Shown here in pieces: positions 8,504 through 21,678 of a DNA stretch of 64,000 nucleotides. A model generated the notes under the pieces. The model ran no database searches, had not been told where the DNA came from, and worked only from the letters and a program-made list of their open reading frames with translations. Origin of the DNA: Nitrososphaeraceae archaeon (lineage in GTDB: Archaea; Thermoproteota; Nitrososphaeria; Nitrososphaerales; Nitrososphaeraceae); the NCBI GenBank assembly GCA_021325295.1, contig JAJPHM010000017.1:1-64000 (forward strand), given 5' to 3'. Both the position numbers and the translations under genes were made by a program. The first letter of the stretch is position 1, and the number at the start of each line of letters is the position of its first letter.

Positions 8504-10069
8504 CTAGAGATTCGACCTGTGACTTTTGTACAGATAAGGACGGGCCTTTTCTTCAAACGATTTATAGTGCATTAGATACTGGTTGAATGCCGCAGCATTT
8601 TTTCTTTTGAATACTATCTCAAACCTCCTTTGCACAACATCCCGGATGTCGTGGTATTCTACCTGGATCATTGCTCTGTCGTTGTCTTCAGGGTCAATTA
8701 TGATCATGCTTTGGGCAGTAAAGCCGCCAAACGAACCGACATACAGGCTATTTTTGTTTATCAGCTGCTCTTTCCAACGGTAAAATTCGGCAGCCCAGCC
8801 GGCTAGCTTGTCTTTCAGGCCAACCACACGGGTTTCCTTCTCATAGGATTGAATAAACCTGGACTCTAATTCTGGAAGTATTATTACAGCACTCATGCCG
8901 TCGTTTAGTCGCTCAATAAAAAGGTCTTTGTGAGACATTGGATCAAATGTCAGCGACACTCCTGCAATGATTATCTTTTGCCTAGCATATGACAGGAGGT
9001 TTGAAAAAGAGGGCAGATTTTCACTTCTGTCGTAGAAATATGCGCCGTTTTCGTACCTGCTGTAATATGCCAAATTGATCCTCTCTTTGGCGATCGAGCG
9101 TTCTCTATCAGGCCCTGGCGGGTGAGGACTCCCAAAGCTTGGGCCATATGCAGAGTACAGGACATCCCTTTCTCCATGCTTGAATGTGTATTCGCCTATG
9201 CAGCGGATATACTGGCGAAATTCAGGCAACCTCATCAGGTCTTCTGCTACCCGCGAGCTGAGCAGGATGTGGTCTTCGCTCCCGATATCCATAACCCTCT
9301 TGGCAAGTATTATCCCATCGCCCCATACGTTCATACGGTTCAGAAGGTCCTTGACCAGAAAAACAGGCGCAGCGTTGATGCCTATCCTTATTCTGACCTT
9401 GTCTGGCTCCGCCACCTGGCTGTTATAGGCTGCGAGTTTTTGGTGTAGCTGCATAGACAGCTGGAATGGAAGGTGCGACCCTTGGATGAAACCTATTGCA
9501 ACGCCATCGCCAGTTGGCAGTACAAACTTGCTTTCGGTTGGGGTCAGCCGGTATGCGTCGCACTCTTTAATCGAGTTGTTTAATACGTTTATCTTTTGGA
9601 CCTGTCTTCGAGTATTCAGCGTCCTATCTGAAAGGCCGACAATGTCTGCAAAAAAGAAATTAGTATAGATAGGCGTATCCGCTCCACCATCGCCGATTAC
9701 AAGAAAAGAAGTCTGTGCGCTCTGCCCTTCAAAAATCGCCCTGACCGTGTATCTTCCTGAAGTCAGGTTGCCTGTCAGTTTGAATTCATCATAAAAAGAG
9801 TTGTCTGGATCAAGAGTTAACCTGCCGTCTCTGTATTTTGATCCATCGTTGCTATGAATCTGAACAAACACTGTCCCGTGGTTGGTTGAAATCTTGCTGA
9901 CAGATCCGCTGATCTTGACCTGATCACCAGCTAGGTATGATGGCTTGTCAGTTTCAACGCTCAGTGGTCTATCCTCTGCCAAGGAACAGCTGTACTCTGG
10001 TGGCAACTCAATATAAAATAATGTAACACCAAGCCTTTTGGCTACGGCCAGATAAGTAGGTTCTGTCAA
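8504..10069 (-). CDS. Ig-like / class III cyclase-like / PLD-like fusion protein
   Basis: 521 residues in three parts. Residues about 36-125 form an Ig-like MG2-type domain (DKPSYLAGDQVKISGSV, then SGRYTVRAIFEG). Residues about 135-310 match the class III nucleotidyl cyclase fold: FFFADIVGLS with the first metal Asp (142), TGDGVAIGF with the second metal Asp (188), RIRIGINAA, and VWGDGIILAKRV. In the last motif the transition-state Asn of GDxVNxAxR is Ile254 while Arg258 is kept, so activity is doubtful or altered. Residues about 350-521 (KIIIAGVSLTF, MSAVIILPE, SMIIIDPED) resemble DUF5919/PLD-like effector regions. No signal peptide or membrane segment is obvious, which is odd for an Ig-like domain. 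Start TTG at 10069 is the only option near the N-terminus and is uncertain. Confidence 0.7.
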   Translation of the reverse strand: MTEPTYLAVAKRLGVTLFYIELPPEYSCSLAEDRPLSVETDKPSYLAGDQVKISGSVSKISTNHGTVFVQIHSNDGSKYRDGRLTLDPDNSFYDEFKLTGNLTSGRYTVRAIFEGQSAQTSFLVIGDGGADTPIYTNFFFADIVGLSDRTLNTRRQVQKINVLNNSIKECDAYRLTPTESKFVLPTGDGVAIGFIQGSHLPFQLSMQLHQKLAAYNSQVAEPDKVRIRIGINAAPVFLVKDLLNRMNVWGDGIILAKRVMDIGSEDHILLSSRVAEDLMRLPEFRQYIRCIGEYTFKHGERDVLYSAYGPSFGSPHPPGPDRERSIAKERINLAYYSRYENGAYFYDRSENLPSFSNLLSYARQKIIIAGVSLTFDPMSHKDLFIERLNDGMSAVIILPELESRFIQSYEKETRVVGLKDKLAGWAAEFYRWKEQLINKNSLYVGSFGGFTAQSMIIIDPEDNDRAMIQVEYHDIRDVVQRRFEIVFKRKNAAAFNQYLMHYKSFEEKARPYLYKSHRSNL

Positions 10070-14039: not shown

Positions 14040-15209
14040 TCAGCGCTTTCTTGCCAAGTAAGCCTGCTTCATCTCGCTTACCCAGGCAGCCTTCTTTCTG
14101 TACAGCTCTTTTGGCCTCCGGGGTTTACATTCTGAAAGTGCATAGGAGCAGAGGAGTGGGAAGTAGACGGAGCTGTCTCCGTAAACTATTACATTTCCTC
14201 CATGCGACGTCTTGATCTTGCCCCAGCTTTTGCCTTCTTGCAGCGTTGCGCCAGAAAGACCTCCAGTGTCAGGCCTAGCATCTGTCAGCTGGATAAGGTA
14301 ATCCTGTCCTCCCTCCTTAAGTTTCAGTATCTGGTAGAGTGCAGGACCTGTCTGCTGGAAAAAGTTTTTTGGAACTCCTCCGCCAAGCTCAAGCCCTCCG
14401 GATTTGCCGCTCTTCCACAGTATTGCAGCAGACTCTGCTACGTCAAGAATGACGTTTGGCAAAATGGCAGTGCCTTCAAACAAAAGCGGGAGCATGTCTA
14501 GGCCCACCGACGAGTCTGCAATGGCAGGCATGTATACAGGAACGCCGTGCTCATATGCAGAAACGATAAACGACTTCTCCGGGTATTTGGAATTCTCCTT
14601 TGCCGCCTTGCCCAGCGCATATGCAATATCTGCAGTAGAAGCGCTGGCTGAATCAGCGCTGATTGCTTTTCTTGCGTTTTCTATGTCCTTCTGGATAATG
14701 AGGTCCTGCGCTTGCAAGGTTCCTATTTCTTTTATGTAAACATCATAAATCCGAACTATTTGCTTTGAGTACAAGATGTCATCGTCGACATTAAAATGAC
14801 CCTGCCTGACTGGAAGGTCGTATGCAAAGTGCAGGTCGTGGTAGACATTTGCACCGGTCGCTACTATCCAGTCTATAAAGCCACTTTCTATCATTTTGGC
14901 TATAGACCGTCCAAGGCCAATCGGAGTCATTGCACCTGCAAGAGTCAGGCATACAGTAGAGTTTGTGTCGATCATCTCTTTGAGAATCTCTGCAGCTTCG
15001 GCAAGCCTTCGAGCGTTATACCCGGTTGATCCGTAAAATTCCACAAGTTGAGAAACTGTCATGTTGGCTGAGATGCGCGGCGGATCTATCTTTTTTCCGC
15101 TAAACGTGTGCCTGTGGTCACTGCCGTGGCTATTTGCATGTCGTTCCTGATCATTTCTTTGTTCTTGTCCCTGCCCTCGCCCTTGCCCTAGCTCATTTCT
15201 CCGGTGCAT
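14040..15209 (-). CDS. Deoxyhypusine synthase-like protein, paralogue A
   Basis: 389 residues. Deoxyhypusine synthase uses NAD+ and spermidine (in some archaea other amines) to modify a Lys of translation factor aIF5A. The first 45 residues are a low-complexity Gln/Gly/Arg/His extension. Then DHS blocks follow: LTLAGAMTPIGLGRSIAKMI, VATGANVYHDLHFAY, YMPAIADSSVG, GGGVPKNFFQQ, and LSGATLQEGKSWGKIK, with the Lys aligned to the catalytic Lys at about residue 331. The His pair expected after GGGxxK is Asn-Phe here, as in the bacterial/archaeal DHS-like (homospermidine-type) subgroup, so its amine substrate is open. Divergent from paralogue B. Confidence 0.85.
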   Translation of the reverse strand: MHRRNELGQGRGQGQEQRNDQERHANSHGSDHRHTFSGKKIDPPRISANMTVSQLVEFYGSTGYNARRLAEAAEILKEMIDTNSTVCLTLAGAMTPIGLGRSIAKMIESGFIDWIVATGANVYHDLHFAYDLPVRQGHFNVDDDILYSKQIVRIYDVYIKEIGTLQAQDLIIQKDIENARKAISADSASASTADIAYALGKAAKENSKYPEKSFIVSAYEHGVPVYMPAIADSSVGLDMLPLLFEGTAILPNVILDVAESAAILWKSGKSGGLELGGGVPKNFFQQTGPALYQILKLKEGGQDYLIQLTDARPDTGGLSGATLQEGKSWGKIKTSHGGNVIVYGDSSVYFPLLCSYALSECKPRRPKELYRKKAAWVSEMKQAYLARKR

Positions 15210-15260
15210 CCCTTTGGTAAAATTGAACTTGCATTTAAAAATTCTATTTCATGGAAGGAT

Positions 15261-15286
15261 CCGGCCTGCAAAGCATGGCAGGCCGG
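15261..15286. repeat. GC-rich perfect hairpin between the two DHS genes
   Basis: CCGGCCTGC (15261-15269) pairs with GCAGGCCGG (15278-15286), 9 bp, with an 8-nt loop. It stands in the 236-bp divergent spacer. TTTTTAAA-like sequences near 15233-15242 would serve as TATA for the minus-strand gene, and TTTAAAAA near 15356 for the plus-strand gene. Operator, shared leader structure or small RNA cannot be separated from sequence. Confidence 0.5.
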
Positions 15287-15445
15287 AGCCGGTGTACCGA
15301 AGAGGGATATTGTTTTTTTCGGCAGCATGTACAGGCAACAGAATAAAAGATAACGGTTTAAAAACAAAGTTCCATTCGATGAGAAATGTATGTAACTTTC
15401 AACTAGGCATGACTGGAAACCTAGCAGCCATCCAAACTGTACACA

Positions 15446-16483
15446 ATGGAAGGCGTTTTATACCGTAGAATATTCCTAGTTTGCATGGCGTCAAGAGCAA
15501 GCAATAGAAAGAAAAGAAAATCCTCCAAGCCAGATAGAGATCTGCTGGACAGCAGCGTTCTAGATTATTCTATAGACAGCTCATCTAGCTTGTCCTCGAT
15601 TTACGACAAGATGGTCTTTTCGGGTGGCTTTGAATCAAGGAACCTCTCTGACGGTGTTGATATCCTGAGCAGGATGGTAGAAGAAAAGCAGTGCACAAAG
15701 TTTCTGTCATTTGTGGCCGCCCTTATCTCGACTGGCGCTAGAGGAATAGTACGGGACATGCTAAAAAACAGGATGTTTGACTGCGTAATCACAACCTGCG
15801 GAGCTCTTGACCACGATATTGCCAGAACTTTTGCAAAGTATTATGCTGGTGATTTTAGGATGGATGATCGCCTTCTTGCAACCAAGGATATCCACCGGCT
15901 TGGCAACGTCCTTGTACCTGTGGATAGCTATGGTCCTCTTATCGAAAAAAAAGTCCAAGAATGTCTGGGCTTGATGTACAAGGAAGGCTTGCGGGAAGTT
16001 GCAACATACGAGATCACTGACTATATTGGAAGCACCCTTGACGAGTCTTCGTTTCTGTACTGGGCCCACAAAAACAAAATTCCTGTCATTGTTCCCGGTA
16101 TCGTTGATGGCGCCGTTGGCAGCCAGATGTGGTTCTTTTACCAGCAGCACAAGGACTTTAAGCTTGACATCATGAAAGACGAGACCAAGCTTTCTGACCT
16201 TGTATTTGAAGCAAAAAAATCTGGAGCATTTATGGTAGGAGGAGGTATATCAAAGCATCACACCCTGTGGTGGAACCAGTTCAGAGGCGGCCTTGACTAC
16301 GCCGTCTATATTACAACCGCGCCAGAGTGGGATGGAAGCCTGAGCGGGGCGCTAGTAGCTGAGGCGATTTCTTGGGGGAAGGTGAAAACAAGGGCTAGGC
16401 AGACAACAATTCATGGCGAAGCCACAACCTTGCTGCCGTTCATTTACGCTGCACTTCTTGATCGCAGATCCGGAAAGAAATAG
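15446..16483 (+). CDS. Deoxyhypusine synthase, paralogue B
   Basis: 345 residues; ATG 15485 is an alternative start 13 codons in. All hallmark blocks are present: VAALISTGARGIVRDML, VITTCGALDHDIART, PVIVPGIVDGAVGSQMW, GGGISKHHTLWWNQ with the His pair at about 271-272, and EWDGSLSGALVAEAISWGKV with the catalytic Lys at about 312. These keep the residues expected for canonical DHS, so this copy is the better candidate for aIF5A modification. The N-terminus is a basic Ser-rich stretch (KKRKSSKPDRD). It lies 24 bp before a glycosyltransferase gene on the same strand. Paralogue A is transcribed divergently. Confidence 0.9.
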   Translation: MEGVLYRRIFLVCMASRASNRKKRKSSKPDRDLLDSSVLDYSIDSSSSLSSIYDKMVFSGGFESRNLSDGVDILSRMVEEKQCTKFLSFVAALISTGARGIVRDMLKNRMFDCVITTCGALDHDIARTFAKYYAGDFRMDDRLLATKDIHRLGNVLVPVDSYGPLIEKKVQECLGLMYKEGLREVATYEITDYIGSTLDESSFLYWAHKNKIPVIVPGIVDGAVGSQMWFFYQQHKDFKLDIMKDETKLSDLVFEAKKSGAFMVGGGISKHHTLWWNQFRGGLDYAVYITTAPEWDGSLSGALVAEAISWGKVKTRARQTTIHGEATTLLPFIYAALLDRRSGKK

Positions 16484-17381: not shown

Positions 17382-18290
17382 GAGCCTATCCCAATATTAT
17401 TGACAGGCTGGTCTTGTTTCCCTGACAGGTACAGATTTAGCTTGCCATTGCCTCCATATCGTGTGTCCATCAAGAAGTATCAGTACAGGAAGAAAAAGTA
17501 CCTTCCCACTATCAGACATATCCCTGACAGCGTATGGAATGAAGTGAAGGACATCCTGCCTGAAGAAAAGCCATCCAAAACAGTAGGCCGCCCAGCAGTT
17601 TCATTCAGGACGGTAATGGATGGCATCCTGTACATACTTCGCACTGGCTGCCAGTGGAAGATGCTGCCCAGAGAGTATGGGTCAGGCTCTACCTGTCACC
17701 GCAGATTTCAGGAATGGGTTAGTCTAGGGATATTTCAGAAATTGTGGGTCAGATTGCTGCAAATTTACAATTCTGTACGTGGTATCAAATGGAGATGGCA
17801 GTCCCTTGACAGTGCCTCTGTAAAAGCACCTTTAGGTGGGACAAGACAGGCCCCAGTTCGACAGATAGAGGCAAGACAGGTACAAAAAGGCACATTTTAA
17901 CCGACCAGAAAGGAGTACCGCTGTCAGTTGTCATAACAGCAGCCAACACCCACGATATGAAAGCAGCTGCTCAGACTATGGATGGTACTGTTATCAGAAG
18001 ACCCGGGCCCAGGAAATATCGAAGGCAGCACCTGTGTCTGGACAAGGCATACGATTTTCATGCTGTAGAAGATGAGGTTGTAAAAAGAAAGTATGTGCCG
18101 CATATCAGACACAGGAGAGAGAAGAAGCGACATAAAAGAAGGCGATGGGTTGTAGAACGTACCAATTCATGGCACAACAGATTCCGGAAATTGTTAATCC
18201 GGTACGAAAAGAAATCACAGAACTACCTAGCGTTGGTACAGCTAGCATGCTGTATCATTGTGTACAGGAGGTTGATTTTGGGATAGGCTC
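17382..18290 (+). mobile_element. IS5-family (IS427/IS1031-like) insertion sequence
   Basis: 909-bp element bounded by a perfect inverted repeat: GAGCCTATCCCAA at 17382-17394 and TTGGGATAGGCTC at 18278-18290. A 3-bp TTA target duplication flanks it (17379-17381 and 18291-18293). The two transposase frames fit the IS5-type DDE family (DUF4096-like N-terminus). It sits between two glycosyltransferase genes and leaves both intact. The sharp ends suggest a recent insertion. Confidence 0.9.
17400..18286 (+). pseudogene. IS5-type transposase in two overlapping frames
   Basis: The first part (17400-17900) has the DUF4096 segment (RHIPDSVWNEVKDILPEE, TGCQWKMLPREYGSGST, RRFQEWV) and the first catalytic Asp in QSLDSASVKAPLGG. 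The second part, read to a stop at 18286 inside the right repeat, has LCLDKAYDF (second Asp) and RRWVVERTNSWHNRFRKL (Glu). The hand-read continuation in the second frame, DKTGPSSTDRGKTGTKRHIL, begins exactly where the first frame degenerates, so one -1 shift near 17835-17841 (GGTGGGACAAG) would restore a single protein with a full DDE triad. No A6G-type slippery run is there, so a 1-nt deletion is as likely as programmed frameshifting. Confidence 0.85.
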
Positions 18291-18437
18291 TTATTTTGTT
18301 GTTATCGGCCTTGCTGACGGGTCATCTCAATATATATCGCCATTACCCGTTTTTTCTCTCATAACTACCTAGATTACCTTTATTACTGGTCGTTGCCTTA
18401 TTCTTGTTCTACCATAAGAATCGCAGTGGTAAATAAT

Positions 18438-19574
18438 ATGGAAGAAATTGCAGAACCATCTATTCATGAGCAACAATCTGCCTCTGAGATAGGGCTGCGC
18501 TCTCTAAGTGTTATTTACCTTCATAGAAACCCCGATGTGCATCCAAGAACGCTCAAGATTAAGAATGCTGTAGAGAAGAATGGTCTAAGATTCATAATCT
18601 TCAGACCAAGGATCAAGGTGAAATTTAAGAGCAGGCTCCTATCCTCGTTAATCAATTATTCGGCCTTTTTTCTAGAGAGCCTGTTTGTCCGTGGCGATAT
18701 TCTGTGGGTCGCAAATTGCCCTGACACTGTAGGCCTAGGTCCATGTCTGGCCGGTAAAAAATACATCTATGATTATCGCTCTCCATGGTCAAAAGAAGTT
18801 GAAGTAGAATTCGGAAAAGGTATGCTTTCACGATTTGCTGGAAGAATAGAGAACATGGTAAGAAGCAAGGCCGATATCGTCGTTGTTGTCTCTTCCAAAA
18901 TGCTAGAGGAAGTAGAGAACTTTGGCAAACCGGTCTTTACTGTTCCTAATTACCCGCTGAGAAATTTTGTGCCTCGCAAAGAAAGCAAATCCATTCGAAG
19001 TACTGCCGGATGTAGTATTGATAGCAAGGTTGTCCTTTTTGTTGGCAAGCTCAGCAGGGTCGAAGGAGCAGACATGCTTGAAAAAGTTGCAGAAGGTCTT
19101 TCGTCTATGGTCAATATCCAGTTATGGATAGTTGGTGACGGCCCTTTAAGGTATAATATAGAGACTCTTGTGTCCAGGTTTCCAAACTCTGTAAGATTTT
19201 TTGGATGGGTAGACTATAGCGATGTTCCAAGTTACATTGCTTCTGCGGATGTATGCATAGTACCAAGACACAGAACGATATTTAGCGATTATTATAGTGA
19301 ACAAGGAGTGCAGAAAATTGCCGAGTACATAGCTCTGGGCAAGCCAGTGGTAGCATGCAATATAGCTTCCTCCAGTAATTACTTGTTAACAACCGAGGAC
19401 TCATTTGTTGACGGAATAAAACAGGCCCTCGATGGAAGAGCTCCAACAGGAGAGCCCAAGTTCTGGGAAAGCGACAGTGAGCCGGAGCTCTTTCAAGCTA
19501 TAGATACGATGCTTGCACTCAAAGGTATTCCACGGATTACTGCTGTTGGCTACAATAGGAGGCATAGCAATTGA
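18438..19574 (+). CDS. Glycosyltransferase, GT-B (GT4-type)
   Basis: About 378 residues from ATG 18438. The N-terminus is strand-helix alternating with VIYLHRNPDVHPRTLK. The middle has DIVVVVSSKMLEEV followed by the acceptor-side linker, and the C-terminal donor domain shows VVLFVGKLSRVEGADML, LWIVGDGPLR, VRFFGWVDYSDVPSYIASADVCIVPR and GVQKIAEYIALGKPVVACN. These are the usual GT4 hallmarks for a retaining sugar transfer from an NDP-sugar. Its stop overlaps the TTG start of the Alg14-Alg13 fusion by 4 bp, so the two are co-translated. Confidence 0.88.
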   Translation: MEEIAEPSIHEQQSASEIGLRSLSVIYLHRNPDVHPRTLKIKNAVEKNGLRFIIFRPRIKVKFKSRLLSSLINYSAFFLESLFVRGDILWVANCPDTVGLGPCLAGKKYIYDYRSPWSKEVEVEFGKGMLSRFAGRIENMVRSKADIVVVVSSKMLEEVENFGKPVFTVPNYPLRNFVPRKESKSIRSTAGCSIDSKVVLFVGKLSRVEGADMLEKVAEGLSSMVNIQLWIVGDGPLRYNIETLVSRFPNSVRFFGWVDYSDVPSYIASADVCIVPRHRTIFSDYYSEQGVQKIAEYIALGKPVVACNIASSSNYLLTTEDSFVDGIKQALDGRAPTGEPKFWESDSEPELFQAIDTMLALKGIPRITAVGYNRRHSN

Positions 19575-20533
19575 GCAAGGTCGTACTGCTTGCAGGTGGC
19601 GGCGGCCATACAGGCTATGCATATGCTCTCGCTCAGCAGTTAGCCGGCAGATGTGAAATGGAAATAGTTGTCCCAGAAGGCGATAAGCTGAGTCACAACA
19701 GACTCAAGAGGTTTGGAGATGTGAGGACAATGGCAAAACCTCGTGGTCCCAAGACTCCACTTGCTCCATTCATGGCAGGTCTTGCAAAGTCTTTTCTGCG
19801 CTCCTCTTTCATGGTAAGAGGCAAGGCAATTGTTGTCAGCACTGGAAGCAACTTTTGTCTTGCTCCATGTATGCTTGCATGGATGAACGGTATACCCACT
19901 GTAAATTTAGAAAGCTCTGTCAGATTTACAAATGCATCCAAGACGGCGAAGCTTCTTGAAAGATCTTCAACTATAACAGCTTTGCAATGGGAAGAGCAGA
20001 AGAAGCTCCTGCCAAAAGGAGAGGTATTTGGACCTATGCTTGCCAAGCCAGAAGTAAAGCCTTATGACGGAGGATACATCTTGGTCACTGGTGGCACCTA
20101 TGGTCACAAGATGCTGTTCCAAGCGCTAGATTCGTCGAGCCTAGAAAATGTAGTTCTCCAAGCTGGAGCCCTCTATAATCAAGGTTATACACAGAGGCAC
20201 CCGTCATGGAAAGTAATAGATTATAGCGACAAGTTCCACGAGCTCATTGCTGGAGCTCAAGTTGTGGTCACTCATTTTGGCGAAACTATAATTGATTCAG
20301 CGCTAGTTTATGGCAAGCCTACTGTCATTTCCGTTAATCCTGACTGGACAAGAACAGCGGGACTTGAAGATGCAACAGTACTCTGTAAAAAAGTCAATGG
20401 AGTGTTGCTAGACGAGTTTACACCAGATGCACTAATCAGATCAATTGATGCTGCCAAGAAGATGAAACCGCCAGAACTGCCTACCGGAGCTGAGCCTTTG
20501 AGCAAGACAATCTTGAAAGTCGCTGAAAACTAG
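19571..20533 (+). CDS. Alg14-Alg13 fusion, UDP-GlcNAc transferase
   Basis: 320 residues. The N-terminal half is Alg14-like: LLAGGGGHTGYAYALA, then IVVSTGSNFCLAPCML and the membrane-side NLESSVRFTNASKTAKLL. The C-terminal half (from about residue 165) is Alg13-like: ILVTGGTYGHKML, VVVTHFGETIIDSALVYGKP. In eukaryotes the two are separate proteins that together add the second GlcNAc to the dolichol-linked glycan; here they are one protein in the same catalytic order as bacterial MurG. The expected NHQ-type acceptor motif of Alg13 is replaced by RTAG, so the exact sugar is unproven. The TTG start at 19571 overlaps the previous stop. Confidence 0.82.
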   Translation: MSKVVLLAGGGGHTGYAYALAQQLAGRCEMEIVVPEGDKLSHNRLKRFGDVRTMAKPRGPKTPLAPFMAGLAKSFLRSSFMVRGKAIVVSTGSNFCLAPCMLAWMNGIPTVNLESSVRFTNASKTAKLLERSSTITALQWEEQKKLLPKGEVFGPMLAKPEVKPYDGGYILVTGGTYGHKMLFQALDSSSLENVVLQAGALYNQGYTQRHPSWKVIDYSDKFHELIAGAQVVVTHFGETIIDSALVYGKPTVISVNPDWTRTAGLEDATVLCKKVNGVLLDEFTPDALIRSIDAAKKMKPPELPTGAEPLSKTILKVAEN

Positions 20534-20583
20534 CAGGAAATATTGATGTTGGAAATAACGAGACCTTTGTCGGGTAATACGCT

Positions 20584-21678
20584 TTGAAGCTAGCACTAGT
20601 ATTTGGAACAAGGCCACAGATAATCAAATGTGTCCCTGTTATCCGTGAATGCATCGAAAGAAAAATTGATCTTGTCATTGTAAATACAGGCCAGCACTAT
20701 GATTTTGAACTGAGCAAGATTTTTTTTCAAGGTCTTGATGTTCCTCCCCCAAAATATGACTTGGGGATTGGCTCAGGCTCTCACAGCTGGCAGACAGGAA
20801 ATATTATGATAGCGGTAGAAAAAGCACTGAGAGAGATAAAACCATCAGTTTGTCTGGTTCCTGGTGACACAAATTCAGCAATCGGTGCTGCATTGGCAGC
20901 TGTTAAACTCAAAATTTCTGTTGCTCATCTTGAATCAGGACTTAGAAGTCATGAGGAATTTATGCCTGAGGAGATAAATAGAAAGGCAATTGATCATATC
21001 TGCCAACTGCTGTTTGCTCCAACTCAGAATGCCAAAAAAAATCTCCTTGTGGAAGGCATTGCAAAAAAGAAAGTTGTCCTTAGTGGTGACACAATGTATG
21101 ACCTTTATCTGCGCGAAAGGGAAAGAATAGAAGGTACAGGTCTGCCCGAAGGTGCAATAGCGGGTCAATATGCAGTTGCAACCATCCACAGAGAAGAAAA
21201 TACAGACGAGCCCGAGAGACTCGGTAATATCCTTGATGCTATCAAAAGATGCAAGACACATGTAATTTTGCCTATGCATCCTAGGACAAGAGAAAGACTG
21301 AAACAATTTAACTTGATAAACAAGGCCAAATCAATAACGCACCTTTCCATGATCGATCCGCTAGGATACCATGCAATGATGAAGCTGATGCAGAACTCGC
21401 TCTTTGTAATGACAGATTCTGGAGGCATGCAAAAGGAAGCATTTATGGTACAAGTGCCATGCATAACACTTCGGCACAGCACAGAGTGGATTGATACAGT
21501 CAATGCTGGAGCCAACTTTTTGGTTTCCAGAATGGGAAAAGACAGGATCTCTGACATAATAGGTCATGTAACTAAAAATCGCCGAGAGATTGTTAGGATG
21601 ATCAAAAAAGCCAAGAACCCCTTTGGGGATGGAATGGCGGCACCGAAAGTGATCGAAGAGATCATCAAGAGATTTTGA
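20584..21678 (+). CDS. wecB: UDP-N-acetylglucosamine 2-epimerase (WecB type)
   Basis: 364 residues, non-hydrolysing UDP-GlcNAc 2-epimerase giving UDP-ManNAc. Hallmarks are LALVFGTRPQIIKCVPVI, GQHYDFELS, VPGDTNSAIGAALA with the conserved Asp, AHLESGLRS with the Glu, MPEEINRKAID with the second Glu, ATIHREENTD with the His, MTDSGGMQKEAF, and the ending of the GT-B fold. The start is TTG at 20584: the GTRP motif begins seven codons later, and there is no ATG in between, so the TTG start is secure. Fifty bases after the Alg14-13 gene; part of the glycan operon. Confidence 0.94.
   Translation: MKLALVFGTRPQIIKCVPVIRECIERKIDLVIVNTGQHYDFELSKIFFQGLDVPPPKYDLGIGSGSHSWQTGNIMIAVEKALREIKPSVCLVPGDTNSAIGAALAAVKLKISVAHLESGLRSHEEFMPEEINRKAIDHICQLLFAPTQNAKKNLLVEGIAKKKVVLSGDTMYDLYLRERERIEGTGLPEGAIAGQYAVATIHREENTDEPERLGNILDAIKRCKTHVILPMHPRTRERLKQFNLINKAKSITHLSMIDPLGYHAMMKLMQNSLFVMTDSGGMQKEAFMVQVPCITLRHSTEWIDTVNAGANFLVSRMGKDRISDIIGHVTKNRREIVRMIKKAKNPFGDGMAAPKVIEEIIKRF

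Follow-up and report, generated by a model that had tools for sequence, protein, structure and literature searches.

Bacterial SpeY makes homospermidine, according to the accessible text of two reports (PMC9992855, PMC10407285), and homospermidine can act as a donor for deoxyhypusine synthase (DHS), as stated in accessible parts of PMC9992855 and PMC5178350. For the caldomycin synthase CdmS of Thermus, the first agmatine is proposed to be bound by Glu293 and Ser67 and the second by Glu136 and Asp143 (accessible text of PMC10981699). Transfer of agmatine by an archaeal DHS is reported in the part of PMC6105217 that is accessible. Haloferax volcanii carries two DHS-family genes, HVO_2297 and HVO_B0182, one of which has been proposed for homospermidine (accessible text of PMC5178350). 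The archaeon studied here resembles it in having two DHS-family genes; it differs in that a plasmid copy from another Haloferax species is of the KHH type (NF003052) and not NF001980, the sequence comparison having been made with that copy rather than with HVO_B0182. The archaeal enzyme that transfers agmatine is reportedly also from Haloferax.

Spermidine has been measured in the culture supernatant of Nitrosocosmicus agrestis, with bacterial company present (accessible text of PMC8573960). In the literature searched, this is the only study in which ‘ammonia-oxidizing archaea’ and ‘deoxyhypusine’ occur together, and a word count over its main text gives no occurrence of homospermidine. Here we describe a divergent pair of DHS-family genes, A and B, in a Nitrososphaeraceae archaeon. 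We consider it likely, taking the reading as a whole, that A makes homospermidine, that B modifies aIF5A and that the product of A is the likely donor for B. Should homospermidine be the sole donor, a single fold would both produce and consume the source of the aminobutyl unit, which would explain the side-by-side gene pair in the family and the clusters of DHS, arginine decarboxylase and SpeY genes in some relatives. Both enzyme families are already known and their products are predictable, so that the case is mostly ordinary; the pairing and the donor question are worth testing.

A divergent pair of DHS-family genes

Genes A and B lie head to head, 236 bp apart, in the window, the 64,000-nucleotide stretch of DNA that was analysed. 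The genes and their motifs are as follows.

14040–15209, minus strand: gene A, SpeY-like homospermidine biosynthesis protein (DHS superfamily), 389 aa; from NF001980, Pfam DS, tree and DHS fold
14217–14225, minus strand: WGK motif of A, W329-G330-K331, with Lys331 predicted to be catalytic; from sequence, Lys in 53/53 rows
14358–14372, minus strand: PKNFF motif of A, P280-K281-N282-F283-F284, with N282 at the site of human DHS His288; from sequence, Asn in 38/38 A-type rows
15210–15445, no strand: intergenic region of the divergent pair; from sequence, same divergent order in the family
15446–16483, plus strand: gene B, deoxyhypusine synthase, 345 aa (332 aa with a start at 15485); from NF002294, Pfam DS and 8put
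16253–16261, plus strand: KHH motif of B, K270-H271-H272, with His271 equivalent to human His288; from sequence, His in 7/7 DHS rows
16373–16381, plus strand: WGK motif of B, W310-G311-K312, with Lys312 predicted to be catalytic; from sequence and alignment

An earlier note on this DNA had described two divergent DHS-family paralogues, and both open reading frames do lie where it placed them and match Pfam DS (A, 265.1 bits; B, 344.4 bits; cut-off, 27). The PKNFF and WGK motifs that it named for A, the KHH and WGK motifs that it named for B and the Gln/Gly/His-rich amino-terminal tail of A can all be read in the sequence. A search of the genome, which is 99.73% complete, found A and B and no third DS gene. 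Because the alignment of A with B, which spans 298 residues, has an E value of 5e-25 (24% identity), their kinship is beyond chance. A recent duplication is ruled out by the 24% identity and by their separate clades.

B passes the archaeal DHS model NF002294 (PRK01221) with 432.8 bits against a cut-off of 350, which bears out its earlier description as a good DHS, and falls below the cut-off of the more general TIGR00321 (266.8 versus 304.25). Among solved structures, the closest to B in sequence is 8put (E 9.2e-87), which bears the title ‘IF5A in complex with Deoxyhypusine synthase’. B retains both KHH and WGK and, in them, the equivalents of human DHS His288 (H271) and Lys329 (K312), residues whose roles are given in accessible parts of PMC7226451. 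A, by contrast, scores 160.1 bits against the same model (cut-off, 350) and lacks the His. The genome encodes a single aIF5A, the candidate substrate of B, with the loop SKPGKHGSAK, which we take to be the modification loop. Judged by eye, B could start equally well at 15446 or at the ATG at 15485 (Met14 of the listed reading frame), which has a TTTTATA-like stretch 21–29 bases upstream. By family, B is an archaeal deoxyhypusine synthase, and it most likely modifies aIF5A.

Family and active site of A

A passes the model NF001980 (PRK00770), named ‘homospermidine biosynthesis protein’ and SpeY-like, with 457.9 bits (cut-off, 450), as would be expected from the earlier suggestion that it belongs to a DHS-like group linked to another polyamine; with none of the five DHS models that it matched does it reach the cut-off. 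We aligned 53 chosen rows (38 A-type, 7 DHS, 5 NF002699 and 3 of the NF002006 kind). All 53, whatever their type, have the catalytic Lys, and the site of human His288 is occupied by Asn in 38/38 A-type and 5/5 NF002699 rows, by Asp in 3/3 rows of the NF002006 kind and by His in 7/7 DHS rows. The ‘altered active site’ of the earlier note thus stands in that Asn replaces His, but the change is not peculiar to A, being fixed in its own type and in the caldomycin-synthase type. Asn and the catalytic Lys are both fixed in the 38 A-type rows, and PKN is thus a family signature. A damaged or degenerate DHS is ruled out, as the motif is fixed across the family of A itself.

A phylogeny placed A in a single NF001980 clade of all 38 A-type rows (support 99/99), separate from the 7 DHS rows. 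Inside this clade the 13 rows from its own order group together (100/99) and are surrounded by rows from bacteria and other archaea. The deep root of the tree is unsure, as the program flags long branches at the junction between DHS and the rest.

The AlphaFold model of A has a mean pLDDT of 83.8, and its best listed structural matches are DHS structures. Residues 314–319, near the active site, are modelled with low confidence, and the Gln/Gly/His-rich tail lies within a stretch of pLDDT <50 (residues 1–34 of a model without the first Met). This tail has no counterpart in 21 aligned relatives of A, whose rows were read from stop to stop.

A is therefore like NF001980 proteins in its score, its catalytic Lys, its PKN motif and its clade; it differs in the tail and in adjoining a DHS gene rather than one for arginine decarboxylase or agmatinase. 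We found no evidence that NF001980 includes a biochemically tested SpeY; the two copies scanned against the models, one cyanobacterial and one from a sphingomonad plasmid, match NF002699 instead. By family membership, A is a SpeY-like enzyme with homospermidine as its predicted product.

Distribution and gene order

Relatives of A occur in many bacteria, and records titled Nitrososphaera are 78–82% identical to it; our archaeon is probably a Nitrososphaera-like ammonia oxidiser. An NF001980-type gene (at least 440 bits) is present in 107/113 genomes of its own order. Six genomes are exceptions: an NF002699-type gene (>590 bits) stands in for it in G086 and G105, G095 and G145 carry another type (the G095 copy passes NF002006), G136 has one weaker match of 128 bits and G146 one weaker match with E 4.2e-33. 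The kin of G105 (L105) and G086 (L106), both of genus g13, have NF001980-type genes, and the caldomycin-synthase-type gene of these two amounts to a natural swap compatible with equal function.

Within the family of our archaeon (61 genomes), 56 have a DS match, 51 an A-type gene, 51 a B-type gene and 48 both, a count that drops 7 fragment rows (43–226 bits) and includes one partial B (G152). Both genes share one contig in 34 genomes with 8 genus labels, and are divergent in all 34, with 247–1699 bp between the matched stretches; adjacency by chance is thereby ruled out. They lie on different contigs in 14/48 genomes, 10 of the 14 from one genus, and since these are draft genomes some of the split cases may be contig breaks.

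Other families of the order show other arrangements. Clusters of DHS, arginine decarboxylase and SpeY genes occur in G084, G096 and G078; in G078 the clustered SpeY is split over two reading frames and a second, whole copy lies elsewhere. In G015 the decarboxylase gene accompanies SpeY. In all three loci fetched from family f3, an agmatinase-type gene comes next after SpeY, and a Nitrosocaldus copy of the agmatinase-type gene scores as agmatinase (205.8; cut-off, 174.3). A-type and B-type genes are far apart in G046 and G067. As a separate observation, four genomes of family f3 (G067, G076, G079 and G098) all have an aIF5A match broken into two parts, of which the longer contains a single in-frame TAG; this suggests either an intron or a frame change.

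Polyamine pathway genes

We surveyed the neighbourhoods of the best 80 of 420 loci with relatives of A, 14 from ammonia oxidisers and 66 from other organisms, a split judged from titles, with HR04 (L185) put with the ammonia oxidisers by similarity. Near the 66 loci, several of which are from the same genomes as G001, G005 and G013, we found a pyruvoyl arginine decarboxylase in 19, an agmatinase-type gene in 12, both in 10, either in 21 and neither in 45. In a stricter set of reading frames these two remained the commonest true neighbours (17 and 12 loci, respectively). No ornithine decarboxylase or agmatine deiminase was found among ten neighbours of the relatives of A, mostly at loci lacking arginine decarboxylase and agmatinase.

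AdoMet decarboxylase (SpeD) was found in 19/101 genomes of the class, all 19 outside families f1 and f2, which together make up 59 of the 101 genomes searched. Spermidine synthase (PF01564) was matched in 35/101 genomes, including 15/59 of families f1 and f2, three of which (genus g6) score 126–140 bits. Our archaeon’s own genome has no match to SpeD or to spermidine synthase (SpeE). A carboxynorspermidine-type decarboxylase was not detected in it either: the sole PLP-dependent decarboxylase of the PF02784 kind, which is also the sole ornithine/arginine decarboxylase-like protein of the genome, scores 30.3 bits against a cut-off of 409, and is LysA-like, there too below the cut-off (245.4 versus 297.9). 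The genome has three agmatinase-family genes, one of them barely over the agmatinase cut-off (174.6 versus 174.3).

Pyruvoyl arginine decarboxylase has no match in the genome. It is present in 45/61 genomes of the family and unmatched in 9/36 of good quality, so that its lack is common to several. The sequences flanking this gene in G108 match two contigs of our genome, C24 and C68. At the equivalent place there is no assembly gap, because C24 continues for 5 kb with other genes, and the place holds grpE/dnaK-like genes. A rearrangement, or loss elsewhere in the assembly, may still account for the missing decarboxylase.

Proposed reactions and alternatives

We infer the substrate, product, mechanism and relay as follows. 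A would use NAD to oxidise a diamine, as in DHS; the four-carbon unit would be bound to Lys331 as an imine and then transferred to another diamine rather than to a protein. The product would be homospermidine, if the substrate is putrescine, or a guanidino precursor, if it is agmatine. B would be the deoxyhypusine synthase of aIF5A, and the aminobutyl unit that it moves would come from the product of A, so that the two paralogues would act in series. That A makes a homospermidine-type product is very likely.

The step order could differ, with the end product, homospermidine, unchanged: A might couple two agmatines in the manner of Thermus caldomycin synthase, and an agmatinase-type ureohydrolase would then yield homospermidine. 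We looked up the CdmS positions proposed in the accessible text of PMC10981699 using a Trichormus NF002699 protein as ruler in place of CdmS itself; all seven residues looked up are present in it, numbered one on, and we place Thermus CdmS in NF002699 on the basis of the product name of the model. In the 38 A-type rows Glu293, which is also fixed in DHS, and Asp143 are fixed, Ser67 is Ala in 38/38 and Glu136 is not conserved. The conserved Asp143, proposed for the second agmatine, thus favours coupling of agmatines, as do the Asn that the A and CdmS types share at the His288 site, the arginine decarboxylase and agmatinase genes near some relatives of A, and the CdmS-type gene of G086 and G105. 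The shared Lys adds to the likeness with NF002699 (PRK02492), but A scores only 176.3 bits against this model (cut-off, 500) and lies in a separate clade; these differences, with the Ala at Ser67 and the variable Glu136, make agmatine coupling unlikely. The residue pattern leans towards putrescine for A and is not decisive.

A further reading, that A makes another polyamine-kind compound, such as one built in part from cadaverine or on an acceptor specific to these archaea, finds some support in the missing arginine decarboxylase and in the LysA-like protein, albeit under its cut-off. We hold it to be quite improbable, as the recurring family neighbours, arginine decarboxylase and agmatinase, point to agmatine or putrescine. 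Least probable is that A is a second, diverged DHS, or a subunit of a DHS heteromer such as trypanosomatids have, acting on aIF5A: it has the fold and catalytic Lys of DHS, the divergent pairing is conserved and the solved entry 6dft lists, by its molecule names, a DHS with a ‘regulatory subunit’, but A carries the fixed residues of its own family with His288 replaced, its relatives occur in many bacteria, some adjoining polyamine genes, and the two genes are parted in the split-contig genomes (14/48, 10 of one genus) and in G046 and G067.

To return to homospermidine made by A and spent by B, the product of A is a likely donor, since our searches of the genome turned up no route to spermidine. 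B may use homospermidine or another aminobutyl donor and need not depend on A, since agmatine transfer by an archaeal DHS has been reported (accessible text of PMC6105217); we see the chances of the relay as evenly balanced. Two facts weigh most heavily against the reading: arginine decarboxylase is missing, and spermidine was found with N. agrestis, a result that, as far as the accessible text of that study (PMC8573960) goes, speaks against homospermidine as the sole donor. The 45/66 loci with neither gene nearby, the PF01564 matches in families f1 and f2 (15/59), the score of B under the TIGR00321 cut-off and the low-confidence residues 314–319 of the A model also count against it. The broader claim, that most ammonia-oxidising archaea make no spermidine and that the SpeY-like paralogue makes, and the other spends, homospermidine as the sole aIF5A donor, is tentative, somewhat short of an even chance. 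The preferred reading corrects a ‘second deoxyhypusine synthase’ interpretation of a gene found in 107/113 sampled genomes of the ammonia-oxidiser order, and makes testable which polyamine these archaea have and what donates to hypusine where SpeD is not found.

Intergenic region and surrounding genes

Three elements were noted around the start sites of the pair.

15233–15243, minus strand: TATA-like stretch, 24–34 bases above the ATG of A, found by eye
15257–15290, no strand: inverted repeat GGATCCGGCCTGC/GCAGGCCGGAGCC, with 13-nt arms (92% complementary), an 8-nt spacer and the inner 9 bp perfect
15456–15464, plus strand: TATA-like stretch, 21–29 bases above the ATG at 15485 (B), found by eye

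The divergent placement had been taken to suggest joint control. The adjacency is indeed conserved in the family, but joint control remains conjectural: each gene has a TATA-like stretch of its own, as judged by eye, and the genes are on different contigs in the 14 split genomes. The 9-bp core of the inverted repeat is the sole match in the window at ≤3 mismatches (0.03 expected), and the repeat may be an operator, a hairpin or nothing.

To the right of the pair, at 17400–18286, lies an insertion sequence, perhaps broken: of two adjoining reading frames, one matches the DUF4096 front part of an IS4/5-type transposase and the other its rear part, the DDE domain. Two glycosyltransferase-like genes and a UDP-GlcNAc 2-epimerase gene follow in a row at 18393–21678 and look like a surface-sugar cluster. 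On the other side, at 8504–10069, a 521-aa protein has a guanylate-cyclase-like domain (30.1 bits; cut-off, 21.9), a kind of domain that is uncommon in archaea.
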